A DNA stretch of 34,968 bases. Source: Nitrosomonas sp. GTDB taxonomy: Bacteria; Pseudomonadota; Gammaproteobacteria; Burkholderiales; Nitrosomonadaceae. The stretch is taken from assembly GCA_021774075.1 (NCBI GenBank), contig JAJFJK010000071.1:1-34968 (forward strand). The letters run 5' to 3'. A program made the position numbers and the translations under genes. Below are positions 9,260 through 31,701 of the stretch, one piece after another (position 1 is the stretch's first letter; each line of letters begins with the position of its first letter). Under the pieces are notes generated by a model that saw nothing but the letters and a program-made list of their open reading frames with translations, was not told the DNA's origin and did no database searches.

Positions 9260-9634
9260 ATGAATAGCACTGTTCTTGTTGCAGAGGACAATCCATTTAA
9301 TCAAGAGCTTGCATGTTCCATACTAGAGAGTTTAGGACTGCATGTAATGTTGGCTAACAACGGGCAAGAGGCTATTGACTTAGTCAAAGTAAATGATTTT
9401 GTGCTTGTATTGATGGATTGCCAAATGCCCGTAGTCGATGGTTATGAGGCCACTATAGCGTTGCGACAATTGGAGAAAAAGGGAAAATATTTGCCGATTA
9501 TCGCACTTACTGCAAATGCAATGTCTGAGGTCCAGCAGAAATGCCTGGATGCAGGCATGGATGATGTTCTATCGAAACCTTATACATATACCCAACTTGA
9601 AGCTATGCTGAAAAAGTGGATCGCTAAATACTGA
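9260..9634 (+). CDS. Stand-alone response-regulator receiver domain
   Basis: A 124-residue CheY-like REC domain with no output domain. The acidic pocket is VAEDN (7-11), the phospho-acceptor Asp53 sits in LMDCQMP, and the switch residues are Thr84 (ALTANA) and Lys106 (SKPY). The sequence style (DCQMPVVDGYEATIALRQ) is that of the C-terminal receivers of hybrid sensor kinases of the BarA type, so it may descend from one. A ten-codon ORF (9231-9263) ends across its ATG. No kinase gene is in the window; the partner is unknown. Confidence 0.9.
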   Translation: MNSTVLVAEDNPFNQELACSILESLGLHVMLANNGQEAIDLVKVNDFVLVLMDCQMPVVDGYEATIALRQLEKKGKYLPIIALTANAMSEVQQKCLDAGMDDVLSKPYTYTQLEAMLKKWIAKY

Positions 9635-9684
9635 AGACCATAAATCACAAGAAATGCTTGTCAACACCAGTCATGAAGATTACA

Positions 9685-9721
9685 GGCCAAAATCTAACGC
9701 ACTGGTGCAATATTCAGGCTA
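9685..9721. repeat. Family A repeat, single end
   Basis: The segment 9685-9721 matches the outer part of the other family A copies: GGCCAAAATCTAACGC followed by the terminal mirror of TAGCCTGAATATTGCACCAG. It ends with TA at 9720-9721. The G and TA form the TAG stop of the minus-strand gene at 9719-10105. CACCAGT at about 9665-9671 may be the relic of the opposite end, which would make this an internally deleted copy. Confidence 0.75.
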
Positions 9722-10105
9722 GTTATTAGCGGCCTGCCTGTTTAATTTTATCGTTTTCACTGTTAGTTCTATCATTCTCATTGCAATATTCCAACCATAT
9801 CTCAGACTCGCGATATACACAGCCCCCGTGTCTTTCTGATATCCTGCTGGGACAGTCGTACTTTCCAGTTGAGCGTCAGTGAAAACCGTTGACTGGTTGT
9901 TCTGCGACTGATCTGAAGCTAAGAAAGTTGTAGCCAAAGCTGCGTTGATGGGATGCACGTTTTGTAATTGATTTAGATTTGTAGCGCTCATATCTGATGC
10001 AGCCTGTGCCATGTTGGATCTTGCATGAGTCCATTCTGAAATGAGGATGAGTGTAACGATTAATCCGATTATCATTACCAATATCTGCGGATCAATTTTT
10101 GGCAT
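9719..10105 (-). CDS. Small membrane-anchored hypothetical protein
   Basis: A 128-residue protein with one N-terminal hydrophobic helix (about residues 8-23, ILVMIIGLIVTLILIS), followed by a polar Asn/Gln/Ala-rich region and a C-terminal amphipathic stretch (RYGWNIAMRMIELTVKTIKL). I do not recognise a family. A strong AGGAGG lies upstream of the ATG, so translation is well supported. The stop TAG coincides with the TA of a family A repeat end. It is divergent from the thiolase gene; the 34-bp palindrome lies in the shared intergenic region and could regulate either gene. Confidence 0.7.
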   Translation of the reverse strand: MPKIDPQILVMIIGLIVTLILISEWTHARSNMAQAASDMSATNLNQLQNVHPINAALATTFLASDQSQNNQSTVFTDAQLESTTVPAGYQKDTGAVYIASLRYGWNIAMRMIELTVKTIKLNRQAANN

Positions 10106-10198
10106 TTGCCTGACCTCCTACTGTCATGGGGTTGTGGTTATTGGGTGTAATATTTTTATTTAAGCCAAGTATTGTAGAGAGGGGAGATCAATCTGGGA

Positions 10199-10232
10199 AT
10201 GTGACAAATTGTCGCGCGACAATTTGTCACAT
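10199..10232. promoter_or_regulatory. 34-bp perfect palindrome, probable operator
   Basis: Each half is ATGTGACAAATTGTCGC or its exact reverse complement, with no spacer. Each half itself contains the odd-length palindrome GACAA-A-TTGTC (mirror GACAA-T-TTGTC). The site therefore looks like two adjacent dimer-binding sites. It lies 94 bp before the start of the minus-strand membrane protein and 43 bp before the thiolase start. A TetR- or MarR-type operator is the simplest reading; the regulator is not identified. Confidence 0.65.
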
Positions 10233-10274
10233 ATCAAGTAGTCTGTATTTAACCGAACTTAGAGGAAACAATAC

Positions 10275-11453
10275 ATGAGAGAAGTCGTGATATTGAGTGG
10301 TGTACGTACTGCCATTGGAGACTACGGCGGATCGCTTAAAGAAGTCGCGCCCACTGAATTAGCTGCACAGGTTGTGCGTGAGGCGGTGCGACGAGCCAAC
10401 ATTGATCCCGCTGAAGTTGGGCACTTGGTTTTGGGTAATGTAATCCATGGTGAAGCCTGTGACATGTATATGGCACGAGTGGCTGGTATTAATGGCGGCC
10501 TGCCTCAACATAGCGCGGCATTAACGTTAAACCGCTTGTGCGGTAGCGGTTTACAAGCCATTATTTCTGCCAGCCAAAATATTTTATTGGATGATACGGA
10601 TATTGCCATTGCCGGTGGTGCGGAATCCATGAGCCGCGGCGGCTATTTATTGCCTGCTTTACGTTGGGGGCAACGTATGAATGATGGCAATACCATTGAT
10701 ATGATGGTCGGCGCATTAACCGACCCATTTGAACAGGTGCATATGGGGATCACGGCGGAAAATATTGCTGCAAAATGGGGTATTGGGCGTGAAGAACAGG
10801 ATCAATATGCTATCGAGAGTCACCGCCGTGCAGTGTCCGCGATTAAAAATGGTCATTTTAAGGAACAGATACTGCCTATCGAATTGACTACTCGTAAAAA
10901 CACAAGTTTTTTTGATACCGATGAGCATCCGCGTGAAAATATTGATATGGACGCTTTAGCCAAGCTGCGAACAGTTTTTCAAAAAGATGGGACGGTAACC
11001 GCAGGCAATGCCTCCGGTATCAATGACAGTGCGGCGGCATTAGTGCTTATGGAACGTGCAATGGCTGAAAAACGCGGGTTGCAGCCCATGGCACGCTTGG
11101 TTTCTTATGGCCATGCGGGCGTTGACCCACAATTCATGGGTATTGGGCCAATTCCAGCGGTGCAGAATGTTCTAAAACGTGCAGGTCTTACAGTGGCCGA
11201 TATGGATGTCATAGAATCAAACGAGGCTTTTGCCGTACAAGCCTGTGCAGTTGCAAAGGAACTGCAATTTGACCCGCAAAAAACCAATCCTAATGGCGGG
11301 GCTGTCGCATTAGGGCACCCAATTGGCGCAACAGGTGCTATTTTAACCATCAAAGCCCTATATGAATTACAGCGTTCTAATGGCCGCTATGCATTGGTAA
11401 CCATGTGTATTGGCGGTGGTCAGGGGATTGCCGCTGTATTTGAACGGCTTTAA
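10275..11453 (+). CDS. Acetyl-CoA C-acyltransferase (thiolase, BktB-like)
   Basis: This 392-residue thiolase condenses or cleaves acyl-CoA units. All catalytic elements are present: nucleophile Cys89 in NRLCGSG, His348 in GHPIGATG and Cys378 in CIGGGQG. Sequence style is closest to beta-ketothiolases of the BktB/PhaA group, which can feed polyhydroxyalkanoate or fatty-acid metabolism. No pha or fad gene is beside it, so the pathway is not clear. GAGG is about 10 bases upstream of the ATG. The stop TAA is formed by TA plus the first base of a family A element, so this repeat sits exactly at the gene end. The upstream palindrome may regulate it. Confidence 0.93.
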   Translation: MREVVILSGVRTAIGDYGGSLKEVAPTELAAQVVREAVRRANIDPAEVGHLVLGNVIHGEACDMYMARVAGINGGLPQHSAALTLNRLCGSGLQAIISASQNILLDDTDIAIAGGAESMSRGGYLLPALRWGQRMNDGNTIDMMVGALTDPFEQVHMGITAENIAAKWGIGREEQDQYAIESHRRAVSAIKNGHFKEQILPIELTTRKNTSFFDTDEHPRENIDMDALAKLRTVFQKDGTVTAGNASGINDSAAALVLMERAMAEKRGLQPMARLVSYGHAGVDPQFMGIGPIPAVQNVLKRAGLTVADMDVIESNEAFAVQACAVAKELQFDPQKTNPNGGAVALGHPIGATGAILTIKALYELQRSNGRYALVTMCIGGGQGIAAVFERL

Positions 11454-11682
11454 CCTGGATATTGCACCAGTACGTTGGATTTTGGCCTGCTATCGTTATG
11501 CCTATTGGTTTTTGGTAATTTCTGCAAAAATACAATTTGTGCTTAAGGCCTACTTGCCCTGTTTTGAATTGAACGTGCATGCTCTCTACGCCGCAGAATA
11601 ACCGCGCCTCCGGTCGCGAGAACGCTCAACTCAAAACAAGTTCGGCGTTTAAATTCCACCAACTGGTGTAATACCCAGGCTA
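11451..11682. repeat. Family A dispersed repeat, full copy 2
   Basis: A 232-bp element flanked by TA (11451-11452 and 11681-11682), with degenerate ends (ACCTGGATATTGCACCAG and the mirror of GCCTGGGTATTACACCAG). It is inverted relative to the copy at 2571-2816. It shares the roughly 130-bp core, including a CTCCGGTCGCGAG-like loop and GGCGTTTAAATTCCA. Its stem arms TGTTTTGAATTGA (11560-11572) and TCAACTCAAAACA (11626-11638) differ from copy 1, yet they still pair. The element begins within the thiolase stop codon and ends 60 bp before tRNA-Met. Confidence 0.85.
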
Positions 11683-23922: not shown

Positions 23923-24444
23923 ATGATATGCAATCAAACAAAATTTTCTAATGATCCCTTTGTTTTTTTAAGGCTAATCTCTGGTTTTGCTTTTGGCTTA
24001 TTATTTATGTCATTAGCCATTGCCGAAGAGCCTCTGGATATTCGTTCTTATGAAGCCGCAGATCCATGCAAGCCTGAAATTGCGCAGGTTAGGGTAACTG
24101 TAAATGGCGTTGGTTCAGGCGGCATTCTTAGCGTTGAGCTCTATCATGACCCGGATAATTTCTTGAATAAAAAAGGCCGCACAAAGCGCATTCGTATTCC
24201 CGCATCTGAAGGCCAACATACCGTATGTTTTGATCTTGAAAAGCAAGGCACCTATGCAGTTGCTGCTTATCATGATGTTGATGGTAATCGTAAATTAAAT
24301 AAAAAATGGAATATGATGCCCAAAGAACCCTTTGGTTTATCCAATAATCCTGAACAGGATTTTGGTTTCCCAGAATTTAGTGATTCTGCATTCACAACAG
24401 ACACTTTGGGCGCAGACATTTCAATTAATCTTCAGAAGCCTTGA
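23923..24444 (+). CDS. DUF2141 family exported protein
   Basis: A 173-residue protein with an N-terminal signal sequence (hydrophobic LRLISGFAFGLLFMSLAIA, cleavage likely before EEPLD). A DUF2141 beta-sandwich follows, marked by AVAAYHDVDGNRKLNKKWNMMPKEPFGLSNN (about 112-142). The family is found in the periplasm or at the surface; its function is not known. AGGA lies 7 bases before the ATG. The SIR2-TIR gene starts 37 bp after its stop. It is probably not part of that cassette, because DUF2141 proteins occur widely without it. Confidence 0.85.
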   Translation: MICNQTKFSNDPFVFLRLISGFAFGLLFMSLAIAEEPLDIRSYEAADPCKPEIAQVRVTVNGVGSGGILSVELYHDPDNFLNKKGRTKRIRIPASEGQHTVCFDLEKQGTYAVAAYHDVDGNRKLNKKWNMMPKEPFGLSNNPEQDFGFPEFSDSAFTTDTLGADISINLQKP

Positions 24445-24481
24445 AATACCTGTCATTCCTTTTTTTAATGCAGGAGACACG

Positions 24482-25855
24482 ATGGACGAGAAAGTCTGGG
24501 ATCGACTACTAAGACGAATCGAAGATGGCTTGGTTGTGCCTGTTCTTGGCTCCCAGGTGCTTACTTCTGCAGATGGTGTTGATTCTCTTCAGGCGCAGAT
24601 TGCACAATATCTTTTGGAACTCTATGATATTGAACCAGGCAAATACACCTTGACGCCTTCACGTGAATTGAATGATGTCGTTATTCAGATTAAACAACAG
24701 CAGGGTGCTGATTTTCAAGATCTTTATGCTGATATTCATGACGCAATCAAGCACTTAACAACGGGAAGTAATGCGATTATTCCTGAGCCGATTCAACAAA
24801 TTGCAGCAATCTCATCTTTCAATCTATTTGTAACCCTTACGCCTGATGAACAACTTGCACGCTGCTTACAAAAGCGATGTGCGGTAAATGAAATTATCTA
24901 TTCTCCCTACCTGCCCACCAGTGAGGGCTCAGACCTACCCAAAGATTGGCAGTCACATCATGGTGAAGCGCAATTGCTCTATCTATTTGGAAAATCCAGA
25001 GCAGGGCCAATGTTCGCAATACATGATGAAGATCTTTTGGAGTATATGCACAACATTATTGCTCGTGGCAGTCATGTGCCGGTCAAGTTCCTGGATGAAT
25101 TACAACAACGTAGCCTGCTATTAATTGGATGTAATTTTCCCGAGTGGCTAAGTCGTTTCTTTTTAAGGCTGACCAAACAAGGTCGACTGTTAGATACACA
25201 AAGGAAAAAAGAGTGGTTGATTGACAATAACCCCGTTAATAAAGACTTGGTTTATTTTCTGGAAAGCTACAGCAAAGGTACCAAGGTTATTTCAGATATT
25301 TCACCTAAAACTTTTGTTTCTGAACTATATCAGCGTTGGCAAGCGCGTAATAATGAATCTGAAAAAACACCTTCGCTTAGAATTGAGCACGTACCGCATG
25401 GCACCATGTTTTTCATTAGCTATTGTCGTGGCACCGATTATGCTTGTGCTGTGAAATTGGGCGAATCACTTCAATCTCAAGGGGTGGCATCCAATGAAAT
25501 CTGGTTTGATGAACATTCAATTGCACCTGGAAACGATCTGCGTAATCATATCCTGGAAGGCAATCAAAGCTGCCGTTATTTTGTTCCAATCATTTCTAAA
25601 GCAGCGGATGCCTTGGATGAGAAATATTTCCGTCGAGAATGGCACGAAGCCATTGAAAGGGGCAAAGGAATCCAAGGACGAACATTTATTTTTCCAATTA
25701 TTGTGGATGAGGATTTTAAGCTTGAAGAATATCAATGTATTCCGCTTGAGTTTAAGCAATTACTTATCGGCCATGCACCGATAGGAGAACCAAATGAACA
25801 AACCCGTGCAGCATTAATAAATCTTGTACGTAAAGAACGTTTAAAACGCGCATAA
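24482..25855 (+). CDS. SIR2-like/TIR fusion protein, probable NADase effector
   Basis: A 457-residue soluble protein with two parts. Residues 1-285 look like a SIR2-fold domain: VVPVLGSQV (18-26), FVTLTPDEQ (116-124), LYLFG (166-170), HDEDLLEYM (181-189) and LLLIGCNFPEW (212-222) fall in the right order. However, the GAG, TxNYD and catalytic LHG motifs are degenerate. Residues 306-450 are a TIR domain: MFFISY strand, IWFDEHSIAPGNDLRNHI loop region, and FRREWHEAIERG with candidate catalytic Glu386. TIR domains cleave NAD+ in bacterial immunity. The start is the ATG with AGGAG 5 bases upstream; the frame stays open further upstream but overlaps DUF2141. The STAND-WD40 gene begins 16 bp later. 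Confidence 0.85.
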   Translation: MDEKVWDRLLRRIEDGLVVPVLGSQVLTSADGVDSLQAQIAQYLLELYDIEPGKYTLTPSRELNDVVIQIKQQQGADFQDLYADIHDAIKHLTTGSNAIIPEPIQQIAAISSFNLFVTLTPDEQLARCLQKRCAVNEIIYSPYLPTSEGSDLPKDWQSHHGEAQLLYLFGKSRAGPMFAIHDEDLLEYMHNIIARGSHVPVKFLDELQQRSLLLIGCNFPEWLSRFFLRLTKQGRLLDTQRKKEWLIDNNPVNKDLVYFLESYSKGTKVISDISPKTFVSELYQRWQARNNESEKTPSLRIEHVPHGTMFFISYCRGTDYACAVKLGESLQSQGVASNEIWFDEHSIAPGNDLRNHILEGNQSCRYFVPIISKAADALDEKYFRREWHEAIERGKGIQGRTFIFPIIVDEDFKLEEYQCIPLEFKQLLIGHAPIGEPNEQTRAALINLVRKERLKRA

Positions 25856-25871
25856 ACCAAGGTAATTGTTA

Positions 25872-28800
25872 ATGACTATCAATTCAAAAGATGATGTGAT
25901 TGATACCAGCCAACAGCATCATATTGAGTTAAATGCTCAGTATCCATGGCCTGGGCTTGCAGCCTATGACGAATCAGCAAGTGAATATTTTTTTGGGCGC
26001 ACTGAAGAAACCAAAGAATTATTACGCATGGTTCTGCTTGCGCCACTGACCGTCCTTTACGGCAAATCGGGATTAGGTAAAACGTCATTATTGCAAGCTG
26101 GGTTTTTCCCGCTTTTACGCGCTGAGCATTTTTTCCCAATTCATTTACGGCTTGATTATCGTTCCACGGCGGCGCTGCCTCCGCTAGACCAGGCTGCCAA
26201 AAAACTGCAAGCAGCACTGACAACGGCACAGGCAGATTTTACAGCGTGGAATGAAAATGAAAACCTGTGGCAGTATCTCCATCGTCGGGATCTGGAAATC
26301 TGGAGTCACGATAATTACTTGTTAACGCCAGTACTTGTTTTTGACCAATTTGAAGAAATTTTTTCTCGTGCAAATGGAATTACTGATCATATCCAATCCA
26401 ATCTCAATAGCATAGCTGATTTGATTGAAAACCGCATTCCAAGTAAATTAACTGATCATCATTCAAGTCGACACACGTTGTCACAACTTGATCTAATGTC
26501 TCAGAATTACCGGATTGTGCTGGCTTTTCGTGAAGATTTTCTTCCCGAGATAGAAGGTTGGAAAGAACAAGTGCCTTCCTTGCTGCGCAATCGTCTGCGT
26601 TTATTGCCGATGAATCGTGAGCGGGCAATTGAAGCCGTATCCAGTGCAGGTGCTGCGGTGTTGGCGCCAGGTGTGGCTGAACCATTGGTTAACTTTGTTG
26701 GAAATTTAGATTCAGTTTCATCAGAGGTTGCTTCGGTAATTGAACCGGTACTTTTGAGCTTATGTTGCTATCAACTTAATCAGTGTCGTCCACAAGATGG
26801 AAAAATAGATACTGAGCTTTTGCAACATGCCGGACAAGATATTTTACAAGATTTTTATGACGAAGCACTCAGCGATATGCCCACCCAGGTATCGCAATTT
26901 ATTGAGACATATCTCATCCAGGGTAACCAGTATCGGGGTAGCTACCCAGTCGATCAGGCGATCCAGGATGGTTTCATAACGCAACAACAACTGTCGACCC
27001 TGGCTGATAAATATCGATTATTGCGAATTGATCAACAGTTGGGCGCCAATCGAATAGAACTCATCCATGATCGTTTAGTCGGTGTTGTCAGCAAAGCGCG
27101 CGATGAACGTCTGCGACAGATCGAGAACCAGCGTCTTCAAGCTAAGGAACAAGAACACCAACGCCAATTAGCGTTTGAAAAAGCAGAGCAAGATGCCGCA
27201 AATTTACGTCGACAAGCGCGAAAACTTCATGCCGTATTATTGCTCGCAGCAATATTGGCAGGCATAGCAGGCTATGGTTGGTATACCGCTGATATTGAAA
27301 GAGAAAAAGCATTTCTGGCACAACAAGAGGTTAACAGTCTGCGCGCTGTTTCAGAGAGCCTGGATATGGCAAATGGCACCCGTTTAGGTGGTGACGAACG
27401 CGCAATCATGCAGCTGCTTGCGATCAATCAAACAGCGCCCAGTAATGTGGTTGACGAGGCGCTTTTAACCGTCGTACTAAATAAGAATGCCACTAAAAAA
27501 GTTTGGAGTACTGGTGACAAAATCGTATCAGCTACCTTTAATCATGATGGAGCACGCATCGCTTCAGTAAGTGAAGGAAATTTGCTGCAAATATGGGACG
27601 TTAATAGTGGTCAGCTTATCAACCAGAAAACAAAGGCGCATGAATGTATTGTGAATGATGAGGCGTCAAGCCACACAAAGCGCACAAACTGTGCAATATT
27701 GAGTATTTCTTTCAGCCCAGATGGCGCAACCATTGTGTCGGGCGGCCAAGATAAGGCGTTACGATTCTGGAATGCAGAAACTCTGGAACCCGTTGGTAAA
27801 TTGTTGGGGCATGGAGATGATGTCACGAGTGTCGCTTTTAATAACGATGGCACGCGCCTCGTTTCCGGCAGTCAGGATAAAAGCGTACGATTATGGAATG
27901 TGCAAGCGCTAACACCAATTGGCAGTCCGTTATTAGGACACAAAGATGGCGTAACAAGTGTTGCTTTTAGCCCTGACGGTTCACATATTGTTTCTGCCAG
28001 TCATGACAAAACCCTACACATATGGGATGCGCAGACAGTGCAGTTAATTGATTCGCTAGAGGGACATAAGGATAGTGTGACCAGTGTCGCCTATAGTTCC
28101 GATGGTTTATATATTGTTTCCGGTAGCCAGGATAGAAGCTTGCGATTATGGAATGCAAAAACCTTGAATGCTGTAGATAAGCCATTTCACGGCCATGTTG
28201 ATACGGTGTGGGATGTTGCATTTAGTCCTGATAACACCACTATTGTATCTGGTAGTCATGATAGAACTTTGCGTTTGTGGGAAACGAAAACTGGCCAGAC
28301 TATTGGGTTACCACTACAAGGTCATGAAGAATCGGTAAGGTCGGTTTCTTTTAGTCCAGATGGAAAATATATTGTTTCAGGTGGCCGAGATACAACCCTG
28401 CGACTTTGGGATGCCCTTAACAACCAACCGATTAATGCCCTGTTGAAAGGCGGGCATAAGGATTTCGTTGCAAGCGTTGCTTATAGTCTCGATGGAAAAT
28501 ATATTGTATCGGGCAGTGATGATACGACCGTGCAATTATGGGATGCCGAAAGCGGAAAACCCATTGGCAAGCCGATGCAAGGGCATACCGGCTCATTAAA
28601 CGGCGTTGCTTTCAGCCCTGACGGAAAATTTATTGTATCAGGTGCCAGTGATAAAACTTTATGCCTTTGGGATACGACAAGTCAGACACTCGTGGTTAAA
28701 ATGACCGGGCATCAAGAAGGCGTTGAGAGTGTGGCTTTTAGCCCGAATGGAAAATATATTGCGTCCGGCAGCAAAGATAATAATGTGCAGTTGTGGGATG

Positions 28801-29459
28801 GAGAAAGTGGCGAAGCGATCGGTAAGCCGATGTCAGCGCATACTGAAATGGTTAGAGGTGTTGCTTTTAATGCTGACAGCAGCCTGATCGCATCCGCGAG
28901 TTACGACGGCACCGTGCGCTTGTGGAATGTTGATACTCGCCAGTCTATCGCTGAACTGACAGGTCATGAAGCTGCGGTAACAAGCGTGGCTTTTAGTCTG
29001 GATGGAAACCATTTGGTCTCAGGAAGCAAAGACAAAACCCTGATACGCTGGGATTTAAAAAGCCACCAAGCCATTGGTGAACCAATGAGCGGGCATACGG
29101 ACCGGGTAAATAGTGTTGCCTTCAGTCCGGATGGTAAGCATATCATTTCAGGTAGCAATGACAAAACGCTGCGCTTGTGGGATCGAGAAAGCGGCCAAGC
29201 CATTGGTAAACCCATGAGCGGACATGAACAACGCATAAACAGCGTTACTTTTAATCCAGATGGTACACGTATTGTATCCGGCAGTGATGATATGACACTA
29301 CGTATTTGGCCAGCCACTAATGATTCGGTTGAGCAGCTTTGCAATAAATTGACGCGTAACATGAGTGAAGATGAATGGGCAAATTGGGTATCGTCAGACA
29401 TTAAATATAAAAAGCAATGCCAGAATTTGCCAATACCGCCATCTACAAACGCCAATTAA
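25872..29459 (+). CDS. nSTAND1 NTPase with transmembrane helix and 14 WD40 repeats
   Basis: A 1195-residue multidomain protein. It has an nSTAND1 P-loop NTPase (about 24-400): opening YPWPGLAAYDESASEYFFGR, Walker A GKSGLGKT (64-71), Walker B VLVFDQFEE (154-162) and C-terminal winged helix ending ELIHDRLV. A charged, probably coiled-coil linker (404-452) is followed by one transmembrane helix (453-472). Then come 14 WD40 repeats, enough for two seven-bladed propellers, and a conserved-looking tail (EQLCNKLTRNMSEDEW). STAND proteins oligomerise on ligand binding. Here WD40 would be the sensor side. AAGG lies 9 bases before the ATG; a TTG two codons earlier is possible. It lies between SIR2-TIR and the pyrophosphohydrolase, very likely one operon. 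Confidence 0.92.
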   Translation: MTINSKDDVIDTSQQHHIELNAQYPWPGLAAYDESASEYFFGRTEETKELLRMVLLAPLTVLYGKSGLGKTSLLQAGFFPLLRAEHFFPIHLRLDYRSTAALPPLDQAAKKLQAALTTAQADFTAWNENENLWQYLHRRDLEIWSHDNYLLTPVLVFDQFEEIFSRANGITDHIQSNLNSIADLIENRIPSKLTDHHSSRHTLSQLDLMSQNYRIVLAFREDFLPEIEGWKEQVPSLLRNRLRLLPMNRERAIEAVSSAGAAVLAPGVAEPLVNFVGNLDSVSSEVASVIEPVLLSLCCYQLNQCRPQDGKIDTELLQHAGQDILQDFYDEALSDMPTQVSQFIETYLIQGNQYRGSYPVDQAIQDGFITQQQLSTLADKYRLLRIDQQLGANRIELIHDRLVGVVSKARDERLRQIENQRLQAKEQEHQRQLAFEKAEQDAANLRRQARKLHAVLLLAAILAGIAGYGWYTADIEREKAFLAQQEVNSLRAVSESLDMANGTRLGGDERAIMQLLAINQTAPSNVVDEALLTVVLNKNATKKVWSTGDKIVSATFNHDGARIASVSEGNLLQIWDVNSGQLINQKTKAHECIVNDEASSHTKRTNCAILSISFSPDGATIVSGGQDKALRFWNAETLEPVGKLLGHGDDVTSVAFNNDGTRLVSGSQDKSVRLWNVQALTPIGSPLLGHKDGVTSVAFSPDGSHIVSASHDKTLHIWDAQTVQLIDSLEGHKDSVTSVAYSSDGLYIVSGSQDRSLRLWNAKTLNAVDKPFHGHVDTVWDVAFSPDNTTIVSGSHDRTLRLWETKTGQTIGLPLQGHEESVRSVSFSPDGKYIVSGGRDTTLRLWDALNNQPINALLKGGHKDFVASVAYSLDGKYIVSGSDDTTVQLWDAESGKPIGKPMQGHTGSLNGVAFSPDGKFIVSGASDKTLCLWDTTSQTLVVKMTGHQEGVESVAFSPNGKYIASGSKDNNVQLWDGESGEAIGKPMSAHTEMVRGVAFNADSSLIASASYDGTVRLWNVDTRQSIAELTGHEAAVTSVAFSLDGNHLVSGSKDKTLIRWDLKSHQAIGEPMSGHTDRVNSVAFSPDGKHIISGSNDKTLRLWDRESGQAIGKPMSGHEQRINSVTFNPDGTRIVSGSDDMTLRIWPATNDSVEQLCNKLTRNMSEDEWANWVSSDIKYKKQCQNLPIPPSTNAN

Positions 29460-31106: not shown

Positions 31107-31146
31107 CGGCGTTAAAATTCCACCAGTTGGTGCAATATTTAGGCTA
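31107..31146. repeat. Family A repeat, single end
   Basis: CGGCGTTAAAATTCCACCAG followed by the terminal mirror (TTGGTGCAATATTTAGGCTA), ending with TA at 31145-31146. It matches the right ends of the full copies. It forms the gap between the methyltransferase 5' end and the toxin gene. It supplies the last Ala codon and the TAA stop of the toxin. Confidence 0.8.
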
Positions 31147-31456
31147 ATTCATTCGTTCCTGATTTTTTAAAAGTGTCAGGCCATTTTCTGGATGTGTGCA
31201 TAACAGCTAATATACGGATATCTTTACCTGTGATCTGATACGGAAGAATGTACGGAAGCTCGTTTACAACAAGCTCGCGTGTGCCGGAAATACGACTTGG
31301 TCTACCGATCTCAGGATAATATGACAAACTGTCCGCAACGGTTTTTATTCTACTAAGAACCTCGTAAGCTGCTTTAGTTGTGCTGTCTTCCCTAATAAAA
31401 GCACCGATAATTTTTAAATCATCAAGCGCTTCATCAAGCCATATGACCGCACGCAT
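31139..31456 (-). CDS. ParE/RelE-superfamily toxin
   Basis: A 105-residue toxin-like protein: MRAVIWLDEALDDLKIIGAFIRED opening, a central SLSYYPEIGRPSRISGTRELVV (family hallmark YPxxGR) and a C-terminal beta strand ILAVMHTSRKWP. ParE members poison gyrase and RelE members cut mRNA on ribosomes; the RHH partner favours the ParE side. The ATG overlaps the antitoxin TAA by one base (TAATG), which is typical translational coupling. The last residue and stop come from the family A repeat, so the original C-terminus may have differed slightly. Confidence 0.88.
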   Translation of the reverse strand: MRAVIWLDEALDDLKIIGAFIREDSTTKAAYEVLSRIKTVADSLSYYPEIGRPSRISGTRELVVNELPYILPYQITGKDIRILAVMHTSRKWPDTFKKSGTNELA

Positions 31457-31701
31457 TATTTGAATTTTTCAATAATATTATCAACGTCCTGACTTGAATG
31501 AAAAATGGCATTTTCTTCTGAAGCAATATCCAGACGCTCCTGAATTTTCTTTGTTTGCCATTCGTAAAGATCCAGATACTGATCAATAGCCTGATTGACC
31601 AGCCAGTTTCTGGATCGGTCTAGGTTTTGTGCGATAAGATCCAGTTTCTCTTGTTTATCTGCTGTAACTGAAACACTCATACGTCCTGTTTCACTAGCCA
31701 T
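31456..31701 (-). CDS. Ribbon-helix-helix (CopG-type) antitoxin
   Basis: An 81-residue antitoxin. The N-terminal RHH DNA-binding motif is MSVSVTADKQEKLDLIAQNLDRSRNWLVNQAIDQYL (about 8-43). A charged C-terminal tail probably wraps the toxin (SSQDVDNIIEKFK). A GGGGGA Shine-Dalgarno sits just before the ATG at 31701; an internal ATG at M8 has less support. It is the first gene of the pair. TAATCA half-sites upstream suggest autorepression. Confidence 0.88.
   Translation of the reverse strand: MASETGRMSVSVTADKQEKLDLIAQNLDRSRNWLVNQAIDQYLDLYEWQTKKIQERLDIASEENAIFHSSQDVDNIIEKFK

Follow-up and report, generated by a model that had tools for sequence, protein, structure and literature searches.

Within a window of 34,968 nt from a Nitrosomonas genome (the window being the whole stretch of DNA analyzed here, contig C194 of a 225-contig, 3.49-Mb genome), a 34-bp perfect palindrome at positions 10199–10232 very likely represents a tandem pair of RegA boxes, overlapping by 2 bp, in a RegA-dependent, leftward promoter of the sigma-70 type that would serve a gene encoding a 128-amino-acid (128-aa) protein. 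Many proteobacteria use RegB/RegA as a global redox regulator. Computed here were the box and its doubling, its ties to RegA and to the regBA promoter, its fixed distance to a -10 hexamer and the direction of the promoter.

The site consists of two 17-base arms that are 100% complementary (17/17 pairs) with 0 nt between them. Comparison of the arms confirms the preliminary description of this DNA, which had reported a spacerless perfect palindrome of two exact 17-base halves between divergent genes; the distances it gave, 43 bp for a thiolase gene (ATG at 10275) and 94 bp for a leftward gene (ATG at 10105), are also correct. Each half was said to contain a nested GACAA-N-TTGTC motif, and these were located as GACAAATTGTC at 10203–10213 and GACAATTTGTC at 10218–10228, nothing else in the window matching GACAANTTGTC exactly and a third place matching with one mismatch. 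A chance origin, already judged very unlikely, is not favored by the numbers: about 2e-6 arms of at least 17 bases are expected per window and 2e-4 per 3.49-Mb genome, the longest zero-spacer arm in 200 shuffles of the window was 10, and no other zero-spacer perfect palindrome with an arm above 7 occurs in the window. The natural units of the site are two 17-bp dyads, 10200–10216 and 10215–10231, which overlap by 2 bp and follow each other with a 15-bp step. The positions given below for the boxes relative to the transcription start derive from the -10 hexamer, with an inferred start near 10164.

10199..10232, strandless: 34-bp perfect palindrome, made up of two RegA-type boxes that overlap and one A/T pair on the outside
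10200..10216, strandless: proximal RegA-type box TGTGACAAATTGTCGCG, centre 10208, inferred position -44, matching the PrrA consensus at 11/12 positions in the minus-strand reading
10215..10231, strandless: distal RegA-type box CGCGACAATTTGTCACA, centre 10223, inferred position -59, matching the PrrA consensus at 11/12 positions

The box consensus, TGYGRCA-N3-TGYCRCA, was derived by reading the half-site places in the same genome, in which the full palindrome has one near copy (on C18) and its half-sites occur at further places. Scanning of this genome with TGYGACANNNTGYCRCA at ≤1 mismatch yielded 19 forward matches, versus 4 for the reversed control. Single 17-bp boxes are present in all 61 genomes of a genus sample, and 15-bp-step double boxes (≤3 mismatches) in 43 of the 61, the control giving 0. 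Among 52 paired-box loci, which include one with boxes 17 bp apart (L022) and one 3-mismatch match (L170), just 10 are perfect palindromes; hence symmetry of the whole site is not the conserved property. A 17-bp step instead of the 15-bp one was also found at C178 and at C20 (9765/9782). Around 43 exact boxes of an unselected sample, neighbors (≤1 mismatch) were found at 17, 48, 53–55 and 80 bp and none at 15 bp, a sample that could not reveal the 15-bp doubles because the exact pattern cannot match overlapped boxes. Box pairs 53–55 bp apart, that is, about five helical turns, recur in relatives (L060, L061, L069, L074, L081), which suggests a second, looping-type arrangement.

The regulator gene carrying the same site in its promoter, for which the preliminary description had proposed to search, was found to be regBA. 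A box on C122 precedes a two-gene regB-regA operon, 264 bp before the first possible start of the sensor gene, and a box (≤1 mismatch) lies upstream of regB in 49 of the 61 congeneric genomes, all of which encode RegA. As a control, 700-bp stretches within regB contain none in 61 genomes, even at ≤2 mismatches. A second sample comprised 80 RegA loci with record titles; most are from Nitrosomonas and some from Nitrosospira or Nitrosovibrio, and it overlaps in part with the 61 genomes. A box lies 1.34–1.72 kb before regA in 68 of these loci, and only one further box (≤1 mismatch) occurs in all 80 together. The operon products have as best NCBIfam matches ActS/PrrB/RegB and ActR/PrrA/RegA, nearly full-length. 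The RegA of this genome (L021:377-940), with NF033791 as its best match below the equivalog cut-off, contains HTH_8, a Fis-type helix-turn-helix, and in an alignment with R. sphaeroides PrrA (1UMQ) its recognition helix, LNMHRRTLQR, is identical.

We then compared RegA-positive and RegA-negative members of the order for the presence of the exact box, using 200 genomes from 108 genera. The box is present in 69 of the 93 RegA-positive genomes versus 8 of the 107 RegA-negative ones; excluding the own genus, the figures are 62/86 and 8/107. The reversed pattern shows no association (30/93 versus 32/107, P 0.76). In RegA-negative genomes the box is rarer than the control (11 versus 44 matches, both strands), while RegA-positive genomes outside the genus have 225 box matches versus 48 for the control. 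Among the matches listed, which hold 47 regA rows, both boxes and regA are tabulated for 38 non-genus genomes, and in 16 of these a box lies 1.26–1.84 kb before regA; the linked box of G218 lies on the opposite side of regA and is outside the 16 counted.

The fit to the sites published for this family was also determined. The consensuses given are YSCGGC(5)GWCRMA for R. sphaeroides PrrA, GNGRCRTTNNGNCGC for B. japonicum RegR and SSGNVRDNHYSNCSS for R. capsulatus RegA (PMC5506826). Of the 12 defined positions of the PrrA consensus, each half of the palindrome matches 11, a score reached at 5 of 69904 window positions (both strands). The RegA consensus is likewise matched at 11/12, but 155 window positions reach that score and 24 reach the score of the RegR consensus, so that these two fits are weak evidence and only that to PrrA is selective. 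Taken together, co-occurrence, the box before regBA, the PrrA consensus fit and the identical recognition helix make RegA (RegA/PrrA/RegR) the best-supported candidate reader of the box, on grounds of correlation and homology.

Another regulator, co-inherited with regA and also controlling regBA, could read the box in its stead, for example one of the CRP/FNR type. Sites of that family have the form TGTGA-N6-TCACA (or TTGAT-N4-ATCAA). Through its TGTGA...TCACA the box bears a superficial likeness to the CRP consensus, and both the co-occurrence and the regBA box are correlations. Since the spacing in the box is N7 and not N6, PrrA-type recognition is matched in site and helix alike, and the tie to regA extends over 200 genomes from 108 genera, we consider this explanation quite unlikely. 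The preliminary description had suggested a double operator for a regulator of the TetR/MarR type. The double operator stands; the regulator type is not supported, the matching protein being a Fis-type response regulator encoded elsewhere. A Pfam scan of 30 window proteins recognized neither a TetR nor a MarR domain (BktB being scanned with NCBIfam instead), a result compatible with a distant regulator gene.

The box also stands at a preferred distance from a promoter element. Flanks more than 50% identical were collapsed (224 to 129), with the regBA group set apart. In 18 of the 129 oriented flanks a TATAAT-like hexamer follows the box at a distance of exactly 23 nt (+23), versus a mean of 1.36 at other offsets, and in 16 of these 18 the box is directly followed by TT. 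Collapsing of orthologous flanks was needed because in the uncollapsed set, where the -10 peak was 53/390 at +23, a control hexamer peaked too (34/390 at +15). At the paired-box loci the hexamer is found at +23 on at least one side in 49 of 52, against a background of 0.84% per position. Within the genome that contains the window it occurs at 8 of 12 site clusters, including those before regB, a RIO kinase and a MauG-like peroxidase; this count covers 16 boxes (12 clusters) of 20 scan places and omits weak matches at C69, C96, C137 and C162 and a half-site match at C48. When 11 orthologous RIO-kinase promoters were aligned (of 13 loci, L156 and L164 being left out), the double box stood out as a conserved island, with TTC next to it and TACAAT beyond at a fixed distance. 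By eye, 28 of the 52 paired-box loci lead into a RIO-type kinase.

These counts also bear on a cruciform, which the preliminary description had offered as an alternative and in which the 34-bp symmetry itself would be the function. As single-stranded DNA the palindrome can form a hairpin (-14.8 kcal/mol, z -5.3), but the -10 distance is kept at 49 of the 52 paired-box loci and perfect symmetry at only 10, and single 17-bp boxes occur in 61/61 genus-sample genomes. A structural role is thus not supported, and we regard it as very improbable.

Besides the RIO-type kinase, a second conserved target of double boxes with the -10 at +23 was noticed, a gene which we take to be MoeB/ThiF-like. By eye, it follows ten of the 52 paired-box loci (L143, L145, L146, L147, L157, L160, L162, L167, L305, L309). 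In L154, L155 and L301, paired-box loci that fall under the -10 threshold, the box is directly followed by TTGACG, with TAACTT or TAATTT at +23, and a small open reading frame resembles, by eye, an MbtH protein.

In the window, the arrangement of box, TTCCCA (10199–10194), 17 nt and TACAAT (10176–10171) is found on the minus strand only. The promoter elements and the genes around the palindrome are:

10194..10199, minus strand: -35-like TTCCCA, abutting the proximal box, an arrangement shared with the 11 aligned RIO-kinase promoters of the genus
10171..10176, minus strand: -10-like TACAAT, exactly 23 nt after the proximal box
10114..10119, minus strand: Shine-Dalgarno-like AGGAGG of the leftward gene, from sequence reading
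9719..10105, minus strand: gene for the 128-aa small membrane or exported protein, the most likely target
10275..11453, plus strand: beta-ketothiolase BktB gene, the divergent neighbor, probably not regulated by the palindrome site
9260..9634, plus strand: gene for a stand-alone response-regulator receiver protein, a neighbor

The leftward gene is the likely target because only the minus strand has the box/-10 geometry; most likely, the site activates this gene and not bktB. The strong Shine-Dalgarno sequence previously attributed to the small membrane protein gene is indeed present, CCTCCT at 10114–10119 reading AGGAGG on its strand. In a rival explanation, the main target of this RegA double box would be bktB, or both divergent genes would be controlled by it, with the site serving for repression or as a shared operator. 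With just 43 bp between the box pair and bktB, RegA bound there could obstruct a promoter reading rightward. No -10 hexamer is present at +23 on the bktB (plus) side, however, and a sigma-70-like scan of 10050–10330 gave three matches, all of them on the minus strand. The preliminary description had also set absence of the site in close relatives with the same gene pair as its own refutation, and on the side of bktB its reading does fail in this way: no box (≤1 mismatch) was found in the 600 bp before bktB (564 bp for L139) in any of 57 relatives, the closest match having 2 mismatches in two of them and at least 3 in the others. We therefore rejected bktB as the target and hold an action on it, alone or shared, to be unlikely.

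Neither Pfam nor NCBIfam gave a match for the 128-aa protein. At its N-terminus it is similar to two further open reading frames of the same genome (L050:1072-1680 and L051:1447-1668), which share this leader and one of which runs on, by eye, into a ricin-B-type-lectin-like domain; because of this continuation, the leader may be a shared export module. Three relatives (L114, L116, L117) have DNA similar to the receiver gene at 9260–9634 upstream of bktB. As the relative ranking second by BktB similarity shows such DNA before bktB, the small gene and its promoter may have been added in a lineage-specific way.

On the basis of these data, a mechanism can be proposed for a RegA-dependent leftward promoter. 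In this family, RegB senses the quinone or redox state and phosphorylates RegA. Two RegA dimers would then occupy the two 17-bp boxes, whose centers are 15 bp apart; as 15 bp corresponds to about 1.4 helical turns, they would sit on roughly opposite faces of the DNA. The proximal dimer, centred at -44, would abut the weak -35 element and recruit RNA polymerase by contact to TTCCCA-17-TACAAT, and transcription would proceed leftward into the 128-aa gene from a start near 10164. Binding of RegA and a redox response of the small gene are predictions, and that RegA would activate rather than repress is suggested solely by the position of the boxes.

Several observations weigh against this interpretation. 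The regBA operon products score under the curated NCBIfam cut-offs (RegA 197 of 250 bits, RegB 284 of 350), and the RegR consensus is matched at only 9/11 positions. The regBA box is absent from 12 of the 61 genomes, the N. europaea/eutropha-like group among them, and that group is likewise included in the 12 of 80 titled loci that lack it; genomes without a regBA box still carry boxes elsewhere (19 forward in G037). Across the order, 24 of the 93 RegA-positive genomes have no exact box and 8 of the 107 RegA-negative genomes have one; as up to 16 candidates per genome were scored for RegA, a few negative calls may be wrong. The Fisher P of the order-wide comparison (9e-24), like the other P values, overstates the evidence because related genomes within a family are not independent. 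The Poisson P of the +23 peak (about 1e-14 for 18/129 flanks) is generous as well: some of the promoters later counted, the window and C18 included, are those that first pointed to the 23-nt rule, and the 129 flanks retain diverged orthologs, the 18 comprising three promoters of RIO kinases and three of MoeB-like genes. Nor does the geometry hold everywhere: within the regBA group, the -10 is found more often at offsets 31 and 11 than at +23 (12/166). Finally, a search of 60 other congeneric genomes and of named genome contigs did not recover the small gene.

A further explanation would take the palindrome for mobile-element ends or a dispersed repeat, such as a repetitive extragenic palindrome (REP), a miniature inverted-repeat transposable element (MITE) or Tn7-like end repeats. 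The several half-site copies in the genome and the nested repeats are what would be expected from it, and a true dispersed repeat does lie near the palindrome. The copies of the site, though, differ in their flanks outside box and promoter while sharing the promoter geometry, and the box is strongly tied to regA across the order; besides, no transposase was recognized by eye among ten open reading frames of at least 100 aa around the C20 copies. This makes a repeat extremely improbable. Ends of a Tn7 or CRISPR-associated (CAST-like) transposon, considered in view of the repeated half-sites, were rejected on the same absence of a visible transposase, the sites being promoter elements.

The dispersed repeat mentioned is about 54 bp long, with at least 40 matches in the genome; its two inverted copies in the window (83% identical, 9669–9721 and 11451–11503) bracket the small gene, the palindrome and bktB. 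Another repeat, of about 145 bp, MITE-like and with inverted-repeat character, sits between the RegA box/promoter and regB (C122, L021:2286-2434) and is present at no fewer than about 40 places in the genome, 92–97% identical, among the best 40 of 216 candidates scored. The distance from box to regB is 55–85 bp in 35 of the 49 genomes with a box, versus 264 bp here, a difference that may be due to insertion of this repeat. Elsewhere in the window, a protein with a TIR domain and, after it, a long protein of WD40 repeats (24332–29459) form a possible defense or signaling module, and a ParE-like toxin gene with a ribbon-helix-helix-type antitoxin-like gene upstream was found at 31139–31701.

Sites of the RegA family are already known; what differs is the sharpness of the box, its overlap and the common -10 spacing. 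Opposite-face double dimers on overlapping dyads about 1.5 turns apart are familiar from the DtxR/IdeR and QacR operators, which share two dimers and overlapping dyads with the present site and differ in that the proteins are unrelated and act as repressors. Like the sites of RegA/PrrA/RegR/ActR (RoxR), the Nitrosomonas box is an inverted repeat with the same halves and spacing as theirs and is found in the regBA promoter. Unlike them, it is sharp and AT-centred, whereas the literature sites are described as degenerate, dissimilar or without strong consensus (PMC5506826, PMC4263372), chromatin immunoprecipitation sequencing of PrrA having yielded no strong consensus (PMC4263372). Overlapping doubles with a 15-bp step and the common 23-nt distance to the -10 are further differences. 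Some B. japonicum RegR promoters also have more than one box, with two putative RegR boxes (PMC4064962); in the present case the boxes are near-perfect and follow each other at 15 bp, or at 17 bp in C178 and C20 9765/9782. At most At. ferrooxidans promoters tested, RegA binding was located upstream of the -35 (or -24) box (PMC5506826). For RoxR, no usable binding site was found in the literature searched, nor, among the papers listed, was a RegA box or regulon for Nitrosomonas, most subscription papers lying outside that search, which is not proof of absence. The word RegA did not occur in three candidate papers.

The PEP-CTERM upstream motif was considered as well. N. multiformis is a Nitrosospira. 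It is among the genomes used in the study of that motif, which, like the box, is a 17-nt promoter motif linked to a response regulator (PrsR) by phylogenetic profile (PMC1569441). The last bases of the PEP-CTERM motif are TTTACA, and a sigma-54 site comes next (PMC1569441). The RegA box has CRCA at its end and a sigma-70-like -10 behind it. With its TTTACA end and sigma-54 site, the PEP-CTERM/PrsR motif does not match (PMC1569441, PMC9850573).

With the RegA-dependent leftward promoter as the preferred reading, the likely target of the site moves from the thiolase to an uncharacterized, probably exported protein. The DNA site of the RegA family has been called degenerate, or a motif was not found (PMC5506826, PMC4263372); in Nitrosomonas it has a sharp sequence, frequently occurs as a double and often keeps a single distance to the -10, and its tie to regA extends throughout the order. 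We put forward tentatively, as a possibility that falls somewhat short of a probability, that the family uses one sharp operator code, TGYGACA-N3-TGTCRCA, which would seem degenerate only through its study in GC-rich alphaproteobacteria. In ammonia oxidizers, the two overlapping boxes, set 23 nt ahead of the -10 and occupied by RegA dimers on opposite faces, would then be a fixed activation module that can be placed before new genes, as before the lineage-specific small exported protein of the window. If this holds true, the redox regulon of ammonia oxidizers would be readable directly from sequence. Ammonia-oxidizing bacteria are central to nitrification, and a box that is sharp, often at a fixed distance and tied to regA would make their redox regulon predictable from sequence and directly testable.
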